Below, piece after piece: positions 13,187 through 55,849 of a stretch of DNA of 56,266 nucleotides (position 1 is its first letter; every line of letters starts with the position of its first letter). The notes under the pieces were generated by a model. That model ran no database searches, was not told the DNA's origin, and worked only from the letters and a program-made list of their open reading frames with translations. The position numbers and the translations under genes were made by a program. The stretch spans positions 1 through 56,266 of the forward strand of contig WTBT01000077.1 of NCBI GenBank assembly GCA_013138965.1. The letters are read 5' to 3'. This DNA comes from Candidatus Aegiribacteria sp. (GTDB lineage: Bacteria; Fermentibacterota; Fermentibacteria; Fermentibacterales; JCC-6).

Positions 13187-14350
13187 TCATGTTTTCTTGA
13201 TAGATGCAATCTCCCGAACCGCTTCAATAGCCTTATCAATGTGTTCTTCCGTATTGAAGGGGCCGACGCTGAACCTGACGGTTCCATGCATTTTATCGGT
13301 TCCCAACTGTACATGAACCAGCGGAGCGCACTGTAATCCTGTACGGGTCGCAATATTATAATCAACATCAAGCATGGTTCCCGCGTCTCCCGCGACCCAG
13401 CCTTCGATATTTATGCTGAGAACGGCGTTCTGGTTCTCGGTATCATCAGCGCAATAGGTAGTAACGCCGTCAATTTCCTGAAAACTTCTCCGCAGTTTGT
13501 CCCACAAAGCCAGTTCTTTATTATGAATCTTTTCCATTCCCTCTCTCTGAACCCATTTCACACCAGCGTTAAGCCCGGCGACACCAACGGTATTCAAGGT
13601 TCCGGCTTCCATCCTGTAAGGGAATTCCTCAAGGTGAAAGGGGTAAGCGGAGCGAACGCCGGTTCCTCCAAATCGTGTGCCTTTTATAGGCACATCCTCG
13701 CCAATGTAAGACCCGCCGATACCGGTCGGGCCCATGAGACACTTGTGACCGGTAAATACAAGTATGTCAATATTCATCGCCTCAACATCAATGGGAACAG
13801 CTCCGGCGCTCTGGCTTGCGTCCACGGCAAAACAGATGCCTGCTTCCCTGCAGTATTTGCCGATCTCCGTAATCGGTTGAACCGTACCAATAATATTTGA
13901 TGCATGGTTTATGATCACGAGAGTCGTGTTCTTTTTGAAAGCCTTCTTAACATCATCGGGATCGATATATCCTTTGTCATCAAACGGTATATAGGTCAGC
14001 TCAATCTCTCCGTCATGCATTTTATGATACAGTGGGCGCAGCACAGAGTTATGCTCAACATTACTGGTGATAACATGATCTCCTTTTGAAACCATCCCCT
14101 GAATTATCATGTTGAGGGAATCAGTAGCATTATAGCTGAATGTCAAGTGATTCGGATTTGTGCCATTGAATAATTTCGTTAACATTTTACGTGTAGAGTG
14201 AACAACTTCCTCAGCTTCAAGAGCTTTATCAAACCCGGAGCGTCCTGGATTCACTCCGTGTGACTGATAAAACTCCTTCATATAATCGTAAACCTCCTGG
14301 GGTTTTGGATAACTGGTGGCAGAATTATCCAGATATATTAATCCGTCCAT
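13187..14350 (-). CDS. class V aminotransferase, cysteine desulfurase family
   Basis: The 387-residue PLP enzyme contains YLDNSATSYPKPQ, NVEHNSVLRP, FAVDASQSAGAVP, the PLP lysine in FTGHKCLMGPTG, RFGGTG, EAGTLN and RTGLQCAPL, whose cysteine is the likely persulfide-carrying residue. It fits the EF2568-type cysteine desulfurase family, which supplies sulfur or selenium from cysteine or selenocysteine. ATG 14350 is preferred over GTG 14356, since GGAAGGAG ends just upstream. It is about 150 nt downstream of dsrC on the same strand; sulfur donation to DsrC or selenium supply to SelD (35.8 kb) are both possible and unproven. Confidence 0.85.
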   Translation of the reverse strand: MDGLIYLDNSATSYPKPQEVYDYMKEFYQSHGVNPGRSGFDKALEAEEVVHSTRKMLTKLFNGTNPNHLTFSYNATDSLNMIIQGMVSKGDHVITSNVEHNSVLRPLYHKMHDGEIELTYIPFDDKGYIDPDDVKKAFKKNTTLVIINHASNIIGTVQPITEIGKYCREAGICFAVDASQSAGAVPIDVEAMNIDILVFTGHKCLMGPTGIGGSYIGEDVPIKGTRFGGTGVRSAYPFHLEEFPYRMEAGTLNTVGVAGLNAGVKWVQREGMEKIHNKELALWDKLRRSFQEIDGVTTYCADDTENQNAVLSINIEGWVAGDAGTMLDVDYNIATRTGLQCAPLVHVQLGTDKMHGTVRFSVGPFNTEEHIDKAIEAVREIASIKKT

Positions 14351-14627
14351 TCTCACTCCTTCCAGGTAATTGAAAAGTATTAAATTCTGTTATTTTGATA
14401 CACTTTGATTCTATATACTGGCTTGCGTATGCACAAGACCCGGCTGACGAGTTTGTGCAGGGCCGAAAAAGACTCTGCTGTATCAGGCTACCTTGAAGCA
14501 AACATAGCAACTGACCTGCCAATAGTAAACTGGTTTTCAGAAGGCAAAACGGCTCTTCAGAGCCCCTGCTGCGTTACTGATTCAATTACACAGCGTTGCT
14601 ATGCGCATTCATCAGTGCCTTGGAGGT

Positions 14628-35771: not shown

Positions 35772-36992
35772 TCAGACTATTTCGAGCAGTACTGATGGGT
35801 CATCCTGTTGCTCAACATGTCCGATGATAGCGGTTTCGGTATCCCCATGCTCCCTGAGCGTCTTTACCAGAGCATCCGCCTGATCAGGCCTGACGGTAGC
35901 AAGCAGTCCTCCGGAGGTCTGGGCTTCAGCGAACAGGAGATAGTATTTCCTGTCAACGTTTTCTCCGATTTTCAAATAAGGGTCGACGTAATCAGAACAC
36001 TTACAGACACCCTTTGGATTGAATTTATCAAGTAGATCGGGCAGGCCTGGCAGGAGTGGCACATCTTTCGAATTTATCACTATCCTGACTTCCGCATTCC
36101 TGGCCACGGGGAGCGAATGGCCCAGAAGGCCAAAACCTGTAACATCAGTCAGGCAGCTCACATCGAACCTCTGTATTATCTCGGAGGCGTACTTGTTCAG
36201 CCGCTCCATCCAGTAAACGAAGGTACTGAACTGGTTATCGCTCAGACCGCCGTTCATCATGGCATCGCAGTAAACTCCCGTACCAATGGGTTTTGTCAGG
36301 ACTATCAGATCGCCCGGTTTAGCGTTGTCATTCGTTAGAACCGTCCGTGGGCTTGTGATTCCAGTTACACTCATACCGAAACAGAAATCATCCTGTTCCA
36401 TGGTGTGTCCTCCAAGGAGAACCACACCTGATTCATGAAGCTTTTCAGCGGCCCCGGTCAGCAGTTCCAGAATAACTTCAGGCGGGATCTTTCCCGCCGG
36501 GTAAGCCAGATGGTTCATCGCCGTGATGGCCTTGGCCCCCATGGCCCAGATATCCGAAAGACTGTTCGCGGCTGCTATCCTTCCGAAACTTCTTGGATCG
36601 TCAACTATGGGGAAGAAGAAATCAACGGTTTGAACGATAGCTATCTCGTCAGTAAGCCTGTATACCCCTGCATCGTCCATCGTTTGCATCCCGATAATAA
36701 GATTGGGTGAATCGGGCAGAGGCAGCTTTTCAAGTATCCCGGCCAGCCTGGTCGGGTTAAGTTTGCCTGCTCAACCGGCGCAGGGGCCATACTCCGTCAG
36801 CCTTATCTCTTTACCTGATGGAAGGGAACGCTGGGGAATACCGCCTTGCTGCAGTTTTTCCTGGAGAAATTCACAGTAGGTCTGCTGGTGTCTGTCATGA
36901 TGAAATGCTATGCATTCCGAACAATTCCCCCGTCTTTTACAGTCGGAGGGGCAGGGACAATTTTCTCCGTTATAAAGCCCAAAATCTGACAA
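35772..36992 (-). CDS. selD: selenide, water dikinase SelD, selenocysteine form with N-terminal Cys-rich extension
   Basis: SelD makes selenophosphate from selenide and ATP. Read through one in-frame UGA (36771-36773, codon 74), the frame gives 406 residues. Before the UGA is EIRLTEYGPCAG and after it AGKLNPTRLAGIL, so the UGA replaces the catalytic Cys of the GCGCK-type motif, as in known Sec-containing SelD. Later motifs are DDAGVYRL, DFFFPIVDDPRSFGRIAAANS, LLGGHTMEQ and TDVTGFGLLGH. Residues 1-45 are an extra Cys-rich domain (CPCPSDCKRRGNCSEC, HHDRHQQTYC) resembling DUF6485-type miniproteins, fused in frame. The start is weak (TTG 36992). Ignoring the UGA would leave a 305-residue SelD lacking its active site. 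Confidence 0.9.
36738..36756 (-). promoter_or_regulatory. SECIS-like hairpin in selD
   Basis: On the minus strand CCCGACCAGGCTGGCCGGG folds as a 4+3-bp stem with one A-C mismatch and a GGC apical loop. It starts 14 nt after the UGA, so the loop is 22 nt away, within the range used by bacterial SECIS elements. Confidence 0.7.
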
Positions 36993-50766: not shown

Positions 50767-51090
50767 GAATTCTCATCAATTATGCTACCATGGCTTTCCA
50801 GCAGGGGGGAAGGCCCGCATGTTATCCCTTGGCAGGCTGTTGGTGTGCATGAACCCGGCTAATCCGTTTCTTAATCCCACCTGTTTACAGCCATACTGTC
50901 CGAAACACCAGCAGTCAATGTTGTTGTAAGCAAATATTCACTGGAGACTCGGTATCAGAATGTACATCTCTTCGCTAAACTGACAGAGGCTGCATTGTCA
51001 TATCAGGCGCGTGGTATCTCAAAAAATACACACATAATCAGGAATGCAAATCCTGTCAGGAGACTACCTGATTCTTCAGTTCATAAGTGA
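50763..51090 (+). pseudogene. decayed coding sequence(s) after the radical SAM gene
   Basis: A 29-codon stub from ATG 50763 reads MRILINYATMAFQQGGRP..., like the N terminus of a glycosyltransferase. After stops, a frame opens at 50875 and runs to TGA 51090, encoding a protein-like stretch (SETPAVNVVVSKYSLETR, LFAKLTEAALSYQARG, HIIRNANPVRRL) with no start codon. It overlaps the kelch gene's 3' end by 15 nt. I cannot name its family with confidence. Confidence 0.4.
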
Positions 51091-52392
51091 TATTACCTTG
51101 TTTGCCACCTCCGTACCGGTTTCGATTCTGAAGATGTAAATGCCGTTGCTCAGGTTCATACCGGAATCATCTGTACCATCCCAGATGATATTGTGGCTTC
51201 CCTGAGGCATGTCCTGATCAAGAAGATGCCGCGCCAAACGCCCTGCTGCATCATATATCCTTATGGTTACTATTTCTTCCCGGGGCAAAGTGAATTCAAT
51301 ATGCGCAACACCCTGAATTGGATTTGGAGAGACTGCCAAGCAAGACGACACTACACTCGATGACTCTTCATTGATACCAACATTTCCGGTACACCACACG
51401 TCGTTGAGGGGACCGGAGCCATTGTTACCGCCGATTACCCACATCTTATTGTTGTGAACAACCGAACTGTGTGACTCTCTCGCTTGCCACGGCGCAGAGG
51501 CGGTTGAGCGTGTCCAGTTCTCCCCATCAGTTGAATACCACACGTCATTATAAACGGTACTGGTGAGAGAAACCCCTCCGCCTAATAACCACATTTTATT
51601 ATCATACACAACAACTGTATGTCCCATTCTTTCAGCCCATTGCGCTGAATCTGTGACTTTTGTCCAGTCCACTCCATTCACACTGCTCCATACATCATTT
51701 TCACAATCAAACCCGACGGTGAGATACGCGCCGCCTCCGATCACCCACAACTTGCCGTCAAACGAAACTGCCTCATGACCGACTCTTCCGCTCCATGGGG
51801 CGGAAGTAGTTGCGCATGTCCAGTTTATACCGTCTGAGGAATGCCAGACGTCATTGAAGTAGGAGTTCGCACCGCACCCTCCCATCGCCCACATTTTCCC
51901 GTCGAACACTGTCGCCTCCTGACCTTCCCTGACCTCCCATCCGGGTGAGTCGGTTGCCATGCTCCAGCTGCTTCCATTGCTCGACTGCCAGACCTGGCAG
52001 TAGCGAAGTCCTCAACAGCCGTCCCGGCCGCTAAGAAGCCAGATCTTATCATCAAAAACAACACATCCCATGTTACTGCTCATGGGATACGGCACTGAGG
52101 TGCCCTGGCATGCCCAGCTGACTCCATCAGAAGAAGACCATATATCGTGCCACATGGTTCCAGTATCCTGATATCCGTTCAGAACCCAGATATCATCATT
52201 GAAAGAGACGGATGAATGAGAGGCCCGTACCGTCCAGGGAGCCGATGAAGTCATACATTCCCAGCTTTGCGCAATCCCAATCCGACAACAGACTAACAAA
52301 AGCATCATGGCCACCATGGGACCAATACACCTGTGATTTTCTTTATCCGCAGCACTTCCACTTGTTATTGAGGATTGTCTCTCTATAGGCAT
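51076..52392 (-). CDS. secreted kelch-like propeller protein with in-frame UGA (Sec127), paralogue 1
   Basis: Read through UGA 52012-52014, the frame gives 438 residues. A hydrophobic signal (MVAMMLLLVCCRIGIA, residues 26-41) precedes the mature QSWEC. Six or so kelch-like repeats follow (KMWxxGG...NDVWxSSDGxNW). The C terminus is a sorting-type domain (SPNPIQGVAHIEFTLP, YDAAGRLAR, NGIYIFRIETG). The UGA lies in SGRDGC-U-GLRYCQVWQSS, and both sides continue the same repeat. The gene ends with a UGA that has no hairpin. AAAGGAGG precedes ATG 52392 by 8 nt. It is the last gene of a three-gene unit. Confidence 0.85.
51985..52000 (-). promoter_or_regulatory. SECIS-like hairpin in kelch paralogue 1
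   Basis: On the minus strand CTGCCA-GGTC-TGGCAG is a perfect 6-bp stem with a GGUC loop, 11 nt after the UGA. The AGGUCU apex and the 11-nt spacing equal those I recall for the E. coli fdhF SECIS mini-helix. Confidence 0.85.
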
Positions 52393-52460
52393 TCTTCATG
52401 CCTCCTTTCATCGTTACTATTGGACAGGCAGGAAGCAGGAAACTGTCTGTTTCGTCATCT

Positions 52461-53723
52461 TCACAGTAGAACCGCATTCGCCGTAATGTTATGTGATCCG
52501 ATCTTACACACGATGTAGTATACACCTGCAGGCTGGCTGTTCATGCCAACATAGAAAGTACGGTCACCCGGATCAATTTCACCCAGATGCAGATCAACTA
52601 CCTGTCGACCGGTTATGTCGTATACGCTCAATTTTGCATTACTTCGTTCTTCAAGCCCGAGTCTGACCGTTATTGAGCCGCAAGACGGAGTATCAATTAC
52701 GGAAAAACTGAAATTATCACCGGCAGAGTTTTCAGGCTTCTCTATTCCAACCTGAGACCCCTCAAAGAGAATGACGTATCCATGCCCGTTGCCGCAAAGT
52801 AAATCCAGACATCCATCATCATTCCAATCAGTAACATAGGTTCTCGCGTAAGCCAGAAGGAAGATCGTAGATGAACCGTTATTGTATTTAAGGGAATCAA
52901 CGCTATCGAAGAGGGGGGATTCATTTGTGCCGGTATTCTCATAATACTGTAAATATCCCCCTGTTTCGCCTATAATAAGATCCTTTCTGCCGTCGCGGTT
53001 CAGATCCGCCACGTCAGGAAATCCTCGTCTTGTAGTAATCGGAGTTCCTCCGCAGTTGATAAAGGTATAATCCTCAAATATAGGATTACCCGTCGATCCT
53101 CTGTTGATATACATTCGAACACAGGCGGCGCTTCCACCGATATTTCCCTCATCCTCAACAAGCATGTCCAGTAAACCGTCCTCGTTCCAGTCTACAACTA
53201 CGGGAGCGGCATTGTAGCCGACATCAATTACCGTACTATTTGCAGTGATATGCCCTGCGTACGTTAACACAGGATAGGACACTCCTGAATCGACAGCCCT
53301 GTAGTGGTCAATCATCCCATCGTGTCCGCCAACAATAATATCCAGCATTCCGTCTTCGTCCCAATCCACAACCTGTGGACTCGTGGCTCCGGTGCATCAA
53401 CCGGCGGAACACTGAATATCTGACCCGTCTGCCTGGATATATATCCATGAAGCAAAGGAAGGATCAGTACTGGTTCCTACATTCTGATAGAACCTCATCT
53501 TTCCGTAATTTTCAACATTCTCGTCAAAATACTGACCAACAATGAGATCTTTCAGTCCGTCACCGTCAAAATCAACGAAAACCGGGTCGCTGAAAAAACC
53601 CACATCGATGCTGTCCCCGCCGCATTGAATGTAGGATATAGAACCGAATACAGGGGGGGCAGCCATCGATGGAAATGCACACAGAATCAGGAATACGAAT
53701 CCGATCACTAAACTTTTAGTCAT
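52461..53723 (-). CDS. secreted FG-GAP/VCBS propeller protein with in-frame UGA (Sec109)
   Basis: Read through UGA 53397-53399, the frame gives 420 residues. A signal peptide (MTKSLVIGFVFLILCAFPSMAA) is followed by at least five FG-GAP-like calcium loops: VDFDGDGLKDLIVG, VDWDEDGMLDIIVGG, VDWNEDGLLDMLVE, ADLNRDGRKDLIIGE and TDWNDDGCLDLLCGNG. The C-terminal domain is of the sorting type (SVYDITGRQV, QPAGVYYIVCKIG). The UGA sits in DIQCSAG-U-CTGATSP, directly before the second repeat, so the repeat register is continuous. It starts 10 nt after the stop of kelch paralogue 2 and ends 68 nt before paralogue 1. Confidence 0.85.
53365..53379 (-). promoter_or_regulatory. SECIS-like hairpin in the FG-GAP gene
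   Basis: TCCACA-GGT-TGTGGA (minus strand) forms 6 bp with a GGU loop. It extends by an A-U and a G-U pair. It starts 17 nt after the UGA, so the loop lies 23 nt away. Confidence 0.75.
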
Positions 53724-53733
53724 ATTTTTTCTC

Positions 53734-54972
53734 TCAAATCAGTATCAGTTGCTTTACCTGTGCAGCACCATCGAACTCACATCTGCAGAAATAGACACCG
53801 CTCTCTACCCTCTGTCCCGCAGTGTTCCTTCCATCCCACAGCACACTGTGGTCACCGGAAGCTGAGAACTGATCGGTTATTGTAAACACCTCACGACCCA
53901 TAATATCGTAGACGATCATCCTTACATTACCGTCATGGGGAAGGCTGCAGGAAATGGTTACTGCTGAAGCAGAGGGATTGGGGTATGCCGACAAGCTGGA
54001 CGGTTGTACGGTATTCGATGATTCTTCAGAGATAGCAACACCTGCCAGGCGCCACACATCGTTGCATTTACTGTTAGAGGCATCAGAGCCACCCATGATC
54101 CATAAAAAACCGTTATACACTAACGATGTATGGCTACTACGGGAATCCCAGGCAGCGGAAGCTGTCTGCTGCGTCCAGTTAACACCATCCGATGAATGCC
54201 AGACATCATTAAAGACCGTACTGCTATTACGCCCACCGGTAATCCACATTTCATTGTTATAAACCACGCACGAGAGAGAGCTTCGTGTATTCCATGGCGC
54301 TGATGCGGTCGCCTGCGTCCAGTTCACGCCGTCAGTGGAATACCACACATCGTTGTACGTATTGTAGTTAACATCCTGCCCGCCCATAACCCATATCTTT
54401 TCGTCGAAGGCCACAGCGGCCAGCCCTGCCCTGGCAGGCCAGGCACTGGAAGTAGCCTCGGTCCACTGGATCCCGTTCGAAGAATACCAGACATCTCCTT
54501 TAAAACCGCTGTTGGTATAACCACCCATAATCCATACCTTGCCGTCATGAACCACTGCCCCATGCGCCATCCTCTGGTTCCAGCCAGGATTAACGGTCAC
54601 CAACGTCCAATTTTCACCATCGTTAGATTGCCAAACCTGGCAACAATAGGGGGCTCAACAGGTAGCTCCGCCCATATTCAACATGAATCCGTTAAAAACC
54701 ACAGTGGGAAAACAGTAGGTCATATCCATACTGCCTGCTGTGCCTAGCAAGTTCCACGACAATCCGTCTGACGAAGACCAGATATCATAGATGGAAGTTG
54801 ATCCTGTATGTCCCCTGAGCACCCACATCTTATCGTCGAATACGACTGATGAGTGGTCGCACCTGTCTGCCCATTGGGCTGAGGATGTTACGCATTCCCA
54901 GGATTGTGCAATTGCTGTCGAAGAACAGGTCAGCAGAACCGCCAACCCGAAGGACCAAAAGTGTCGCATCAT
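53734..54972 (-). CDS. secreted kelch-like propeller protein with in-frame UGA (Sec106), paralogue 2
   Basis: Read through UGA 54655-54657, the frame gives 412 residues. The signal peptide ends STAIA, then QSWECVTSS, nearly the same mature N terminus as paralogue 1. Kelch-like repeats (NDVWYSTDGVNWTQAT, HTSLVYNGFLWIMGG) and a C-terminal sorting-type domain (YPNPSASAVTISCSLP, VYDIMGREVF, VLWDGRNTAGQ, SGVYFCRCEFDG) follow. The UGA is in MGGATC-U-APYCCQVWQS, at the same place as in paralogue 1. GGGAG precedes the start. It is first of the three-gene unit and may follow the 55124-55849 gene. Confidence 0.87.
54628..54643 (-). promoter_or_regulatory. SECIS-like hairpin in kelch paralogue 2
   Basis: TTGCCA-GGTT-TGGCAA (minus strand) is a perfect 6-bp stem with a GGUU loop, 11 nt after the UGA. 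Relative to paralogue 1 the outermost pair changes from C-G to U-A, which keeps the pairing. Confidence 0.85.
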
Positions 54973-55123: not shown

Positions 55124-55849
55124 TTAAAATGATGCCTTGATTCCAGCCCAGGTTCCGTTCTGGAGTGCCTGCGGGCCAAGCCACATGAATTCAAGGATGT
55201 TCTCCCATATTGCGACACCTTCAGTCGCAAAAGCCGGGGTGTATCCGCTGATAACGCTGCGACCATCGTTAGCGACACAGATTCCCGCTTCTCCAGGGGT
55301 TGGTGTGTCTGCCCAACCTGTGACAGGGGTGGCATCAGAAACAGCCATTTTGATATTAATAACATCGGGACCAGTGGGAGGCGCCCAGCTCCAGTCAGTG
55401 ATTCCGGAAGTGATATCATGTCCTGCTTCCCACGCATAGTGAGGAATCACAGTGGTGGTGATATCGATGTAGCCCGTTACTCCCATTGCGTCTCCCAAGA
55501 CTGCTCCCGAAGACCATTTCCAGCATGAAGCGAATACACGGACAGTACCGGCATCGTAAAGAACTTTGACGCCATCCCAGTCAAGGTCGCTATGGAAGCC
55601 GCACCAGCAGTCAATGATGATTATGTCCAGGTCGCTGCCAATGCTGCCCAGATCAGCGTTGAATGCTGCCATCCCTCCGGTGGAGTAGGTGTACGCCATG
55701 ACAGTAGCTGATGGCCAGAGGTTACCGATTGCGGTGAGCACTTCGTCACCGGCGCCGCCAAAGGAGTCATGATATATGAGGATATTGCCGGGGTCCTGTG
55801 CTATTGCCACTGCAGCAATAACAATTATCAGTACATATAAAAACTTCAT
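55124..55849 (-). CDS. secreted protein of unknown function
   Basis: The 241-residue protein has a signal peptide (MKFLYVLIIVIAAVAIAQ) and a Rossmann-like body: NILIYHDSFGG, then LDIIIIDCWCGFHSDLDWDG, RVFASCWKWSSG, and a C-terminal ATEGVAIWENILEFMW. The pattern recalls ThuA-like or class-I amidotransferase-like folds that are not catalytic. There is no sorting domain. GGAGG lies 7 nt before ATG 55849. It is followed by a terminator and then by the selenoprotein-type unit. Confidence 0.75.
   Translation of the reverse strand: MKFLYVLIIVIAAVAIAQDPGNILIYHDSFGGAGDEVLTAIGNLWPSATVMAYTYSTGGMAAFNADLGSIGSDLDIIIIDCWCGFHSDLDWDGVKVLYDAGTVRVFASCWKWSSGAVLGDAMGVTGYIDITTTVIPHYAWEAGHDITSGITDWSWAPPTGPDVINIKMAVSDATPVTGWADTPTPGEAGICVANDGRSVISGYTPAFATEGVAIWENILEFMWLGPQALQNGTWAGIKASF

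Follow-up and report, generated by a model that had tools for sequence, protein, structure and literature searches.

Three adjacent propeller genes of a Candidatus Aegiribacteria genome probably encode full-length secreted selenoproteins

We analysed a stretch of 56,266 bases of Candidatus Aegiribacteria sp. DNA (the window), which forms contig C49 in the draft assembly of a genome (G000; 2.9 Mb, 94% complete). Three neighbouring genes on its minus strand, for a kelch-repeat protein (kelch A), an FG-GAP protein and a second kelch-repeat protein (kelch B), each contain one internal UGA and end in a terminal stop that is also UGA. Judged from sequence, each gene probably encodes one full-length secreted selenoprotein, in which selenocysteine (Sec, U) at the internal UGA and a neighbouring cysteine form a redox pair at the cell surface. 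The parts of this reading are not equally secure: insertion of Sec appears close to certain for the FG-GAP protein and highly probable for the two kelch proteins, export of the three is likely, and a redox role is evenly poised. The frames run as an initial annotation of this DNA had drawn them, each through a single UGA, and the features are as follows.

53734..54972, minus strand: kelch-repeat protein A, 412 aa when read through one UGA, with a signal peptide-like N-terminus, kelch repeats and a C-terminal FlgD_ig / Por_Secre_tail domain
54655..54657, minus strand: in-frame UGA of kelch A, proposed Sec106 (GATCUAPYCC; ATC-U-APYCC), aligned with the UGA of kelch B
54627..54644, minus strand: kelch A hairpin GUUGCCA-GGUU-UGGCAAU, loop 17 nt after the UGA, −7.6 kcal/mol
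52461..53723, minus strand: FG-GAP protein, 420 aa when read through one UGA, AlphaFold predicted local distance difference test (pLDDT) score 88.9, five DxDxDG-type repeats in an alignment read by eye
53397..53399, minus strand: in-frame UGA of the FG-GAP gene at codon 109, proposed Sec109 (SAGUCTGAT)
53363..53381, minus strand: FG-GAP hairpin AGUCCACA-GGU-UGUGGAUU, loop 23 nt after the UGA, −7.7 kcal/mol
51076..52392, minus strand: kelch-repeat protein B, 438 aa when read through one UGA, with a C-terminal FlgD_ig domain
52012..52014, minus strand: in-frame UGA of kelch B at codon 127, proposed Sec127 (DGCUGLRYC)
51984..52001, minus strand: kelch B hairpin ACUGCCA-GGUC-UGGCAGU, loop 17 nt after the UGA, −9.6 kcal/mol

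Kelch A is separated from the FG-GAP gene by 10 nt, and the FG-GAP gene from kelch B by 68 nt. The start of kelch B was placed at the ATG at 52392, behind a GGAGG, with the ATGs at 52317 and 52308 as alternatives. Pfam repeats exceed the curated cut-offs in the kelch and FG-GAP proteins, and the best FG-GAP_3 stretch of the FG-GAP protein (residues 51-131) spans Sec109. NCBIfam has no specific model for any of the three proteins, a sequence search of the PDB gave no match, PHROGs gave one weak match alone, and an Rfam scan of the window returned nothing over threshold. Each internal UGA lies beside or near cysteine, as had been noted (ATC-U-APYCC, SAG-U-CTGAT and DGC-U-GLRYC), and the hairpins reported behind each UGA are present, with loops of the GGU type. 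The distances first given for them, 11 and 17 nt, fit a count on shorter stems; on the longest contiguous stem, pairing begins 10 nt after the UGA in kelch A and B (7 bp, loops GGUU and GGUC) and 15 nt after it in the FG-GAP gene (8 bp, loop GGU). We applied the model of the bacterial Sec insertion sequence (bSECIS) as set out in the accessible text of PMC13188914, in our own coding with contiguous stems only (16-37 nt spacing, G in the first two loop positions, a stem of at least 4 bp and −7.5 kcal/mol or lower). All three internal UGAs pass, and 0 of the 3 terminal UGAs do, in line with the view that the latter are true stops without a hairpin.

Among the three genes, the strongest evidence is that of codon type and position in the FG-GAP family. 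In a search of 60 genomes, with at most the best 30 candidates scored per genome, FG-GAP matches occurred in at least 46, and most of the strong full-length ones carried a single in-frame TGA. We scanned 216 loci (the fetched members together with named loci) with an FG-GAP profile and obtained 136 distinct frames that cross the site when stops are masked and are at least 200 aa long. Rather than ending at the UGA, 115 of these read through it, each with exactly one stop, which is always UGA, and the other 21 have no stop. The UGA stands in one alignment column in 104 frames and in neighbouring columns in 6, 3 and 2, all within a four-column stretch. Since retrieval took the best matches to a query that itself has UGA, the fraction of frames with UGA is not an estimate of how common it is in the family. 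The usual motif is G-U-C-x-G-A/S-x-x-P, with the variants CUPKTGARNP, UGHAATPNP, UATGANNP and UGVCAGSP. Near the site, 101 UGA-containing frames conserve G108 (87%), Cys110 (95%), G112 (95%), T114 (87%), P116 (100%) and Q117 (95%); P116 and G112 are also common in relatives without UGA. Downstream of the UGA, the ratio of nonsynonymous to synonymous substitutions (dN/dS) is 0.157/1.012, about 0.16, between the FG-GAP gene and a relative in another genome (G016) with the UGA in the same place, and 0.205/1.226, about 0.17, between kelch B and its G016 counterpart. By this measure, the protein beyond the UGA is under purifying selection in both the FG-GAP and the kelch genes.

FG-GAP genes with the UGA also occur outside Fermentibacterota, in metagenome-assembled genomes (MAGs) whose labels span at least five further phyla. 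These labels are WOR-3 (three), Zixibacteriota, Fibrobacterota, Chitinivibrionales, Lentisphaerae, Planctomycetota (including Phycisphaerae and a 'Kuenenia' MAG), 'Desulfuromonas' and unnamed bacteria; a member labelled Nitrospirae (L107) is doubtful, with an odd context and no hairpin. We searched for selA in 37 genomes outside Fermentibacterota, those behind 37 of the 80 named loci. It scored over the cut-off in 15 of the 16 genomes with a UGA-containing gene, and the 16th has a fragment. No neighbouring gene near the FG-GAP genes was common across phyla in 35 loci, where the largest neighbour clusters besides FG-GAP itself comprise 5 loci, all of Fermentibacterota by title. In one bacterial MAG (L092), five FG-GAP genes stand in tandem and every one has a single UGA.

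A control with synonymous codons separates selection on the RNA from conservation of the protein. In the 116 FG-GAP genes with at least 63 nt from the UGA onward, we scored a window of 21 nt over the codons for N-P-Q-V-V-D-W and drew the replacement codons from the same genes. Of the 116 genes, 102 form at least 7 of the 8 pairs. The recoded sets yield 7.6 ± 2.6 such genes, with no more than 18 in any of the 2000, and when the corresponding motif is taken from later blades of these proteins, 1 of 202 cases has as many as 7 pairs. Similarly, 78 of the 116 pass the bSECIS model, as against 3.5 ± 1.7 after recoding (maximum 7 in 40 recodings). Taken singly, the hairpin of the window FG-GAP gene exceeds chance: P is 0.005 by synonymous recoding, and none of the 359 further codon positions of the gene reaches it. 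Covariation was assessed on 43 of the 46 distinct hairpins, with three WOR-3 hairpins that have a shifted stem left out: 24 cells changed on both sides, compared with 8.5 ± 2.3 in shuffles, and sliding the stem partners lowered the paired cells from 87.8% to 28-42%. As the sequences are related, these hairpin figures are not strict probabilities. In two MAGs (L102 and L106), Glu replaces Val, so that CCU pairs with GAG.

The kelch genes have few relatives. A search of 42 genomes (E 1e-25) found three full-length members, two in the genome of the window and one in G016, and all three have the UGA at the aligned place. The FG-GAP and kelch genes of G016 stand in one cluster on one contig, and G031 holds a degenerate kelch relative with TAG codons.

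The components for Sec insertion are all present, including selA, selB and selC, for which the initial annotation had suggested a look elsewhere in the genome. The tRNA-Sec scores 75 bits and is called tRNA-SeC by ARAGORN, with anticodon tca. On contig C88, selB (334 bits) adjoins selA (511 bits). Across Fermentibacterota, selA has a match in 38 of 42 genomes, over the cut-off in 35, and in 24 of the 24 genomes that are at least 90% complete. The selD gene lies within the window, as had been claimed:

35772..36992, minus strand: selD, whose frame runs upstream through an in-frame UGA at 36771-36773 (GPCAGUAGKL); start uncertain, the sole candidate being a TTG at 36992

Read as a standard open reading frame, this selD has no N-terminus, which is recovered by reading through the upstream UGA; the window SelD is therefore probably a selenoprotein itself, and its UGA serves as an internal positive control. 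The peptide GPCAGUAGKL fits the UxxK motif that Table 1 of PMC13188914 lists for Sec-containing SelD. A second SelD-like gene, with GUAAK, stands on contig C74 of the same genome (L282:7029). A sample of this genome (20 stretches chosen by contig number, 253,009 bases, about 9%) gave 43 raw readthrough candidates, and among the 12 that were viewed one looked real by eye, namely this second SelD-like gene.

A number of observations weigh against this reading or against parts of it, several of them from the FG-GAP family itself. The initial annotation had looked to homologues with U, C or G at the site; homologues with the UGA were found in many genomes, but none with Cys replacing Sec (0 of the 21 frames without UGA), and the six frames with Cys in the Sec column have a UGA adjoining. 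According to the accessible text of PMC13188914, nearly all selenoproteins have Cys homologues, which is usual and not required. Two broken FG-GAP matches with TAA or TAG had been left out of the fetch and were checked afterwards; one broken copy, split over two frames (L357, G028:C381), has TAA exactly at the Sec place (AG*CTGATNPQ), and a fragment in G025 has TAA elsewhere. Away from the loop with Sec and Cys, the only residues suggestive of a site are R134 and R233 (81% each), selA occurs in 10 of the 21 genomes that hold FG-GAP relatives without UGA, and the genomes of Fermentibacterota are drafts in many contigs. On the side of the RNA, 14 of the 116 FG-GAP genes have fewer than 7 of the 8 pairs, 38 fail the strict bSECIS test, and two of five covariation measures do not rise above shuffles (pairs changed on both sides, 3 vs. 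3.0; further pair types, 9 vs. 9.1). One FG-GAP paralogue without UGA (L057) has lost both Sec and Cys and keeps the full hairpin, which looks like a recent loss of Sec; six other relatives without UGA form 2 to 5 of the 8 pairs. The window SelD UGA, too, has no SECIS by the strict hairpin test.

The points of this kind that concern the kelch genes are that the evidence comes from three kelch sequences with UGA, that three weaker relatives which span the site and have no UGA carry Phe, Met or Ile in its place, and that the peptide sequence largely fixes the hairpin. For the two kelch hairpins, P is 0.41 and 0.39 under synonymous recoding, and 9 of 351 and 8 of 377 sites elsewhere in the gene reach the same stem; the P values are weak because the peptide CQVWQ nearly dictates the palindrome. 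In an alignment read by eye, other kelch blades read NDVWYS and similar, and the Sec blade deviates where the stem requires. As to export, the sorting domain of the FG-GAP protein scores 19.9 bits, below the TIGR04183 cut-off of 23.

Secreted proteins with an internal UGA also occur in further families. Ten β-helix proteins with sorting tails and the motif UxxC-GGGGVHC were examined, from G000 (four), G016 (three), G031, G025 and G011. Their stem, GCGGUGG-GGU-CCACUGC, forms 70 of 70 pairs, compared with 54.2 ± 2.8 after recoding (maximum 63 in 2000 sets); hairpin support here is modest, since a single gene reaches the complete stem with P = 0.09 and the ten hairpins are nearly identical. The loop is absent from the six closest relatives without UGA, and others have various residues there. 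No β-helix protein with Cys for Sec was found, apart from one partial alignment of 71 residues in L253. Pfam reported Beta_helix for one of the two β-helix proteins scanned, and a match in G004 has a TGA that is not at the Sec site. β-Helix loci with the GGU-loop hairpin are L231, L232, L216, L237, L241 and L242, and on contig C19 of G016 three β-helix genes adjoin the kelch and FG-GAP genes.

Another family, centred on L231:775-1824 on the minus strand (G000:C3; DVLCUGSPLW), has matches in 41 of 42 genomes. We sampled 52 loci (including L304-L350), five of them chosen for having no stop, and obtained 55 frames, of which 50 have UGA at one column (one with an extra UGA elsewhere) and 5 have no stop. 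The bSECIS model is passed by 43 of the 49 genes with a single UGA, as against 3.1 ± 1.5 after recoding (maximum 6 in 60 sets), with stems that differ greatly in sequence (GUCUCGUC-GGU-GACGGGAC, AGACCAGAA-GGU-UUCUGGUCU and CCCCGUC-GGU-GACGGGG). Cys stands directly before U in 28 frames (CU) and three positions before it in 22 (CxxU); the 5 frames without UGA have neither U nor the neighbouring Cys, and Cys for Sec was seen in 0 of the 5. In our own reading of the sequences, the family is propeller-like, and Pfam finds a sub-threshold sorting tail only. Two matches in the match listing mix TGA with TAA or TAG.

A peroxiredoxin-like protein (L232:7545-8330, plus strand) combines UGSC (UGSCC) with a sorting tail and scores 27.0 for AhpC-TSA, over the cut-off of 26. 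It has no full-length relative in the 42 genomes, where the other matches cover the C-terminal domain only. Among the genes looked at in its own genome, there are 13 putative secreted Sec genes (three each in the window, on C3 and on C93, and one each on C108, C15, C48 and C80) in addition to two SelD genes. Most of the secreted proteins with UGA have a C-terminus like a sorting tail, some below the cut-off. One sorting-tail protein (L216:9253-10062, minus strand) has the UGA within the tail (SCULTGNG) and may be a decayed gene.

In the AlphaFold model of the FG-GAP protein with 31 relatives (pLDDT 88.9, predicted template modelling score 0.77), the Sec/Cys loop precedes strand 114-119 directly and would lie at one face of the propeller, near the axis. 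Foldseek returned the propellers of BBS7, CRTAC1, integrins and a GH130 phosphorylase; the superposition is loose, with most PDB matches at TM-scores of 0.2-0.45 and one at 0.56 by target length. The kelch B model is weak (pLDDT 67.5, two sequences) and was given no weight. Sorting domains are close to their cut-offs in both kelch proteins, at 28.7 bits vs. 27 (PF18962) and 30.2 vs. 23 (TIGR04183) for kelch A, and 26.6 vs. 27 and 28.6 vs. 23 for kelch B. The presence of SprA in the genome (427 bits vs. a cut-off of 200; 0 of 14 controls) lends plausibility to type IX export, with sorting domains that lie near or below the cut-offs.

Taken in sequence, SelB and selenocysteyl-tRNA-Sec would read the internal UGA as Sec owing to the hairpin downstream, and the terminal UGA, which has no hairpin, would end translation. 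A signal peptide would bring each protein through the inner membrane. Its C-terminal FlgD_ig / Por_Secre_tail domain, which is clear in kelch A and B and weak in the FG-GAP protein, would then direct it into a type IX-like machinery with SprA among its parts, leaving it on the cell surface or outside. There, Sec beside Cys (U-C or C-U) would probably form a selenenylsulfide open to reversible reduction and serve as a redox centre at the surface, acting for example on peroxides, polysulfide or other oxidants. We propose such a centre because Sec is nearly always near Cys at a redox-type spacing: Cys follows U in 95% of the 101 FG-GAP frames, C-U or CxxU occurs in 50 frames of the second family, UxxC in the ten β-helix proteins and UGSC in the peroxiredoxin-like protein. 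Since the pair recurs on unrelated scaffolds in one genome, the pair, and not the fold, is likely to be the functional unit.

The chief rival to a redox centre is that the Sec/Cys pair traps soft metals or metalloids (Hg, Cu, As or Cd) outside the cell, which we consider an unlikely but serious alternative. Vicinal selenol/thiol pairs should bind soft metals tightly, and there is little catalytic-looking conservation around the FG-GAP pair. Some CU families of the 2026 selenoprotein inventory are tied to metals in its accessible part (PMC13188914). The CxxU and UxxC forms, together with the peroxiredoxin-like UGSC in the same genome, suggest redox chemistry instead. Distinctly less probable is a switch that depends on selenium, in which low selenium yields a short secreted fragment without the sorting tail, selenium yields the full protein, and both products matter. 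Such a switch would suit the window genes, in all three of which the signal peptide and the first repeats lie before the UGA and the C-terminal domain after it; against it, the position of the UGA follows the neighbouring Cys, and in the β-helix proteins the UGA lies near the middle and thus marks no fixed domain border.

Readings without Sec fare worse still. That an altered code or simple readthrough puts some other amino acid at UGA would account for in-frame UGAs in many genes, but UGA is also the terminal stop of all three window genes, 115 of 115 internal stops of the fetched FG-GAP frames fall within the four-column stretch, and both the Sec machinery and the hairpins are present; we regard it as very improbable. 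Sequencing errors or pseudogenes, to which the draft state of the genomes and the few broken copies with TAA or TAG might point, are the least credible explanation, given the same codon in many genes of many genomes and purifying selection on both sides of it. Pseudogenes, sequencing errors and a code change were ruled out by the identity and position of the stop codon in the FG-GAP frames.

Selenocysteine insertion as the preferred reading follows the ordinary bacterial mechanism, and what is new is the folds, the large numbers and probably the location. As in the bacterial selenoproteins described in the accessible text of PMC13188914, there is an internal UGA, a downstream hairpin at a spacing of 16-37 nt whose loop has G, selA, selB, selC and selD, and Sec near Cys (CU, CxxU or UxxC). 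Characterised selenoproteins mostly have a thioredoxin-like fold according to the same text, in contrast to the secreted repeat folds found here, most of them with a sorting tail. Among the families it names, the FCYXU TonB receptor (NF049945), the ExtKL cytochrome (NF040886) and the MtrB/PioB-like barrel (NF041027) likewise have Sec that is expected outside the inner membrane (PMC13188914). The folds of these surface or outer-membrane selenoproteins are unrelated to those of the window proteins. The latter share Pfam domains over cut-off with FG-GAP (PF13517, PF01839) and kelch (PF01344, PF24681) propellers, and by fold are related to CRTAC1, integrin alpha and others. We know of no Sec-containing FG-GAP or kelch propeller. 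Type IX substrates (Por_Secre_tail PF18962, TIGR04183) have a C-terminal domain like that of both kelch proteins, which is weak in the FG-GAP protein, and export is predicted here. The claim that this fold class lacked known selenoproteins agrees with the 2026 inventory, whose Table 1 of 119 bacterial families names FG-GAP, kelch or β-helix for none; a few entries are hypothetical proteins whose fold is not given (PMC13188914). In the full-text literature we found no paper joining FG-GAP, VCBS, Fermentibacter or secreted/propeller terms with selenocysteine or selenoprotein, and an earlier mention is possible in the work on candidate selenoproteins of groundwater MAGs cited by PMC13188914.

These genes appear to be part of a wider set of secreted selenoproteins on propeller and helix scaffolds that has so far escaped notice. 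They bring several new selenoprotein families, in folds that the inventory does not name, and explain many genes that look like broken pairs. Because no homologues with Cys for Sec were found, the usual searches for Cys/Sec pairs would tend to miss such families. If export is true, a large share of the selenoproteome of one phylum sits outside the cell. A broader picture, which we offer tentatively, is of a selenium layer at the surface of Fermentibacterota, with many secreted selenoproteins per genome, the Sec/Cys pair arising independently on several unrelated scaffolds (FG-GAP, kelch, the second repeat family, β-helix and peroxiredoxin-like), type IX-like export and extracellular redox chemistry in anoxic habitats, and with the FG-GAP version common to five or more further phyla. 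That Sec and Cys are paired again and again on such different scaffolds leads to a testable claim on the job of selenium at the bacterial surface.

Elsewhere in the window, a secreted-looking protein with a DCWCG motif is encoded just upstream of kelch A (55124-55849, minus strand); it has a counterpart on contig C19 of G016, and neither Pfam nor NCBIfam gives it a match at E 0.001. A cysteine desulfurase family protein that shares the window with selD (13187-14356, minus strand; TIGR01977, 432 bits) also resembles the selenocysteine lyase SclA, below the SclA cut-off.

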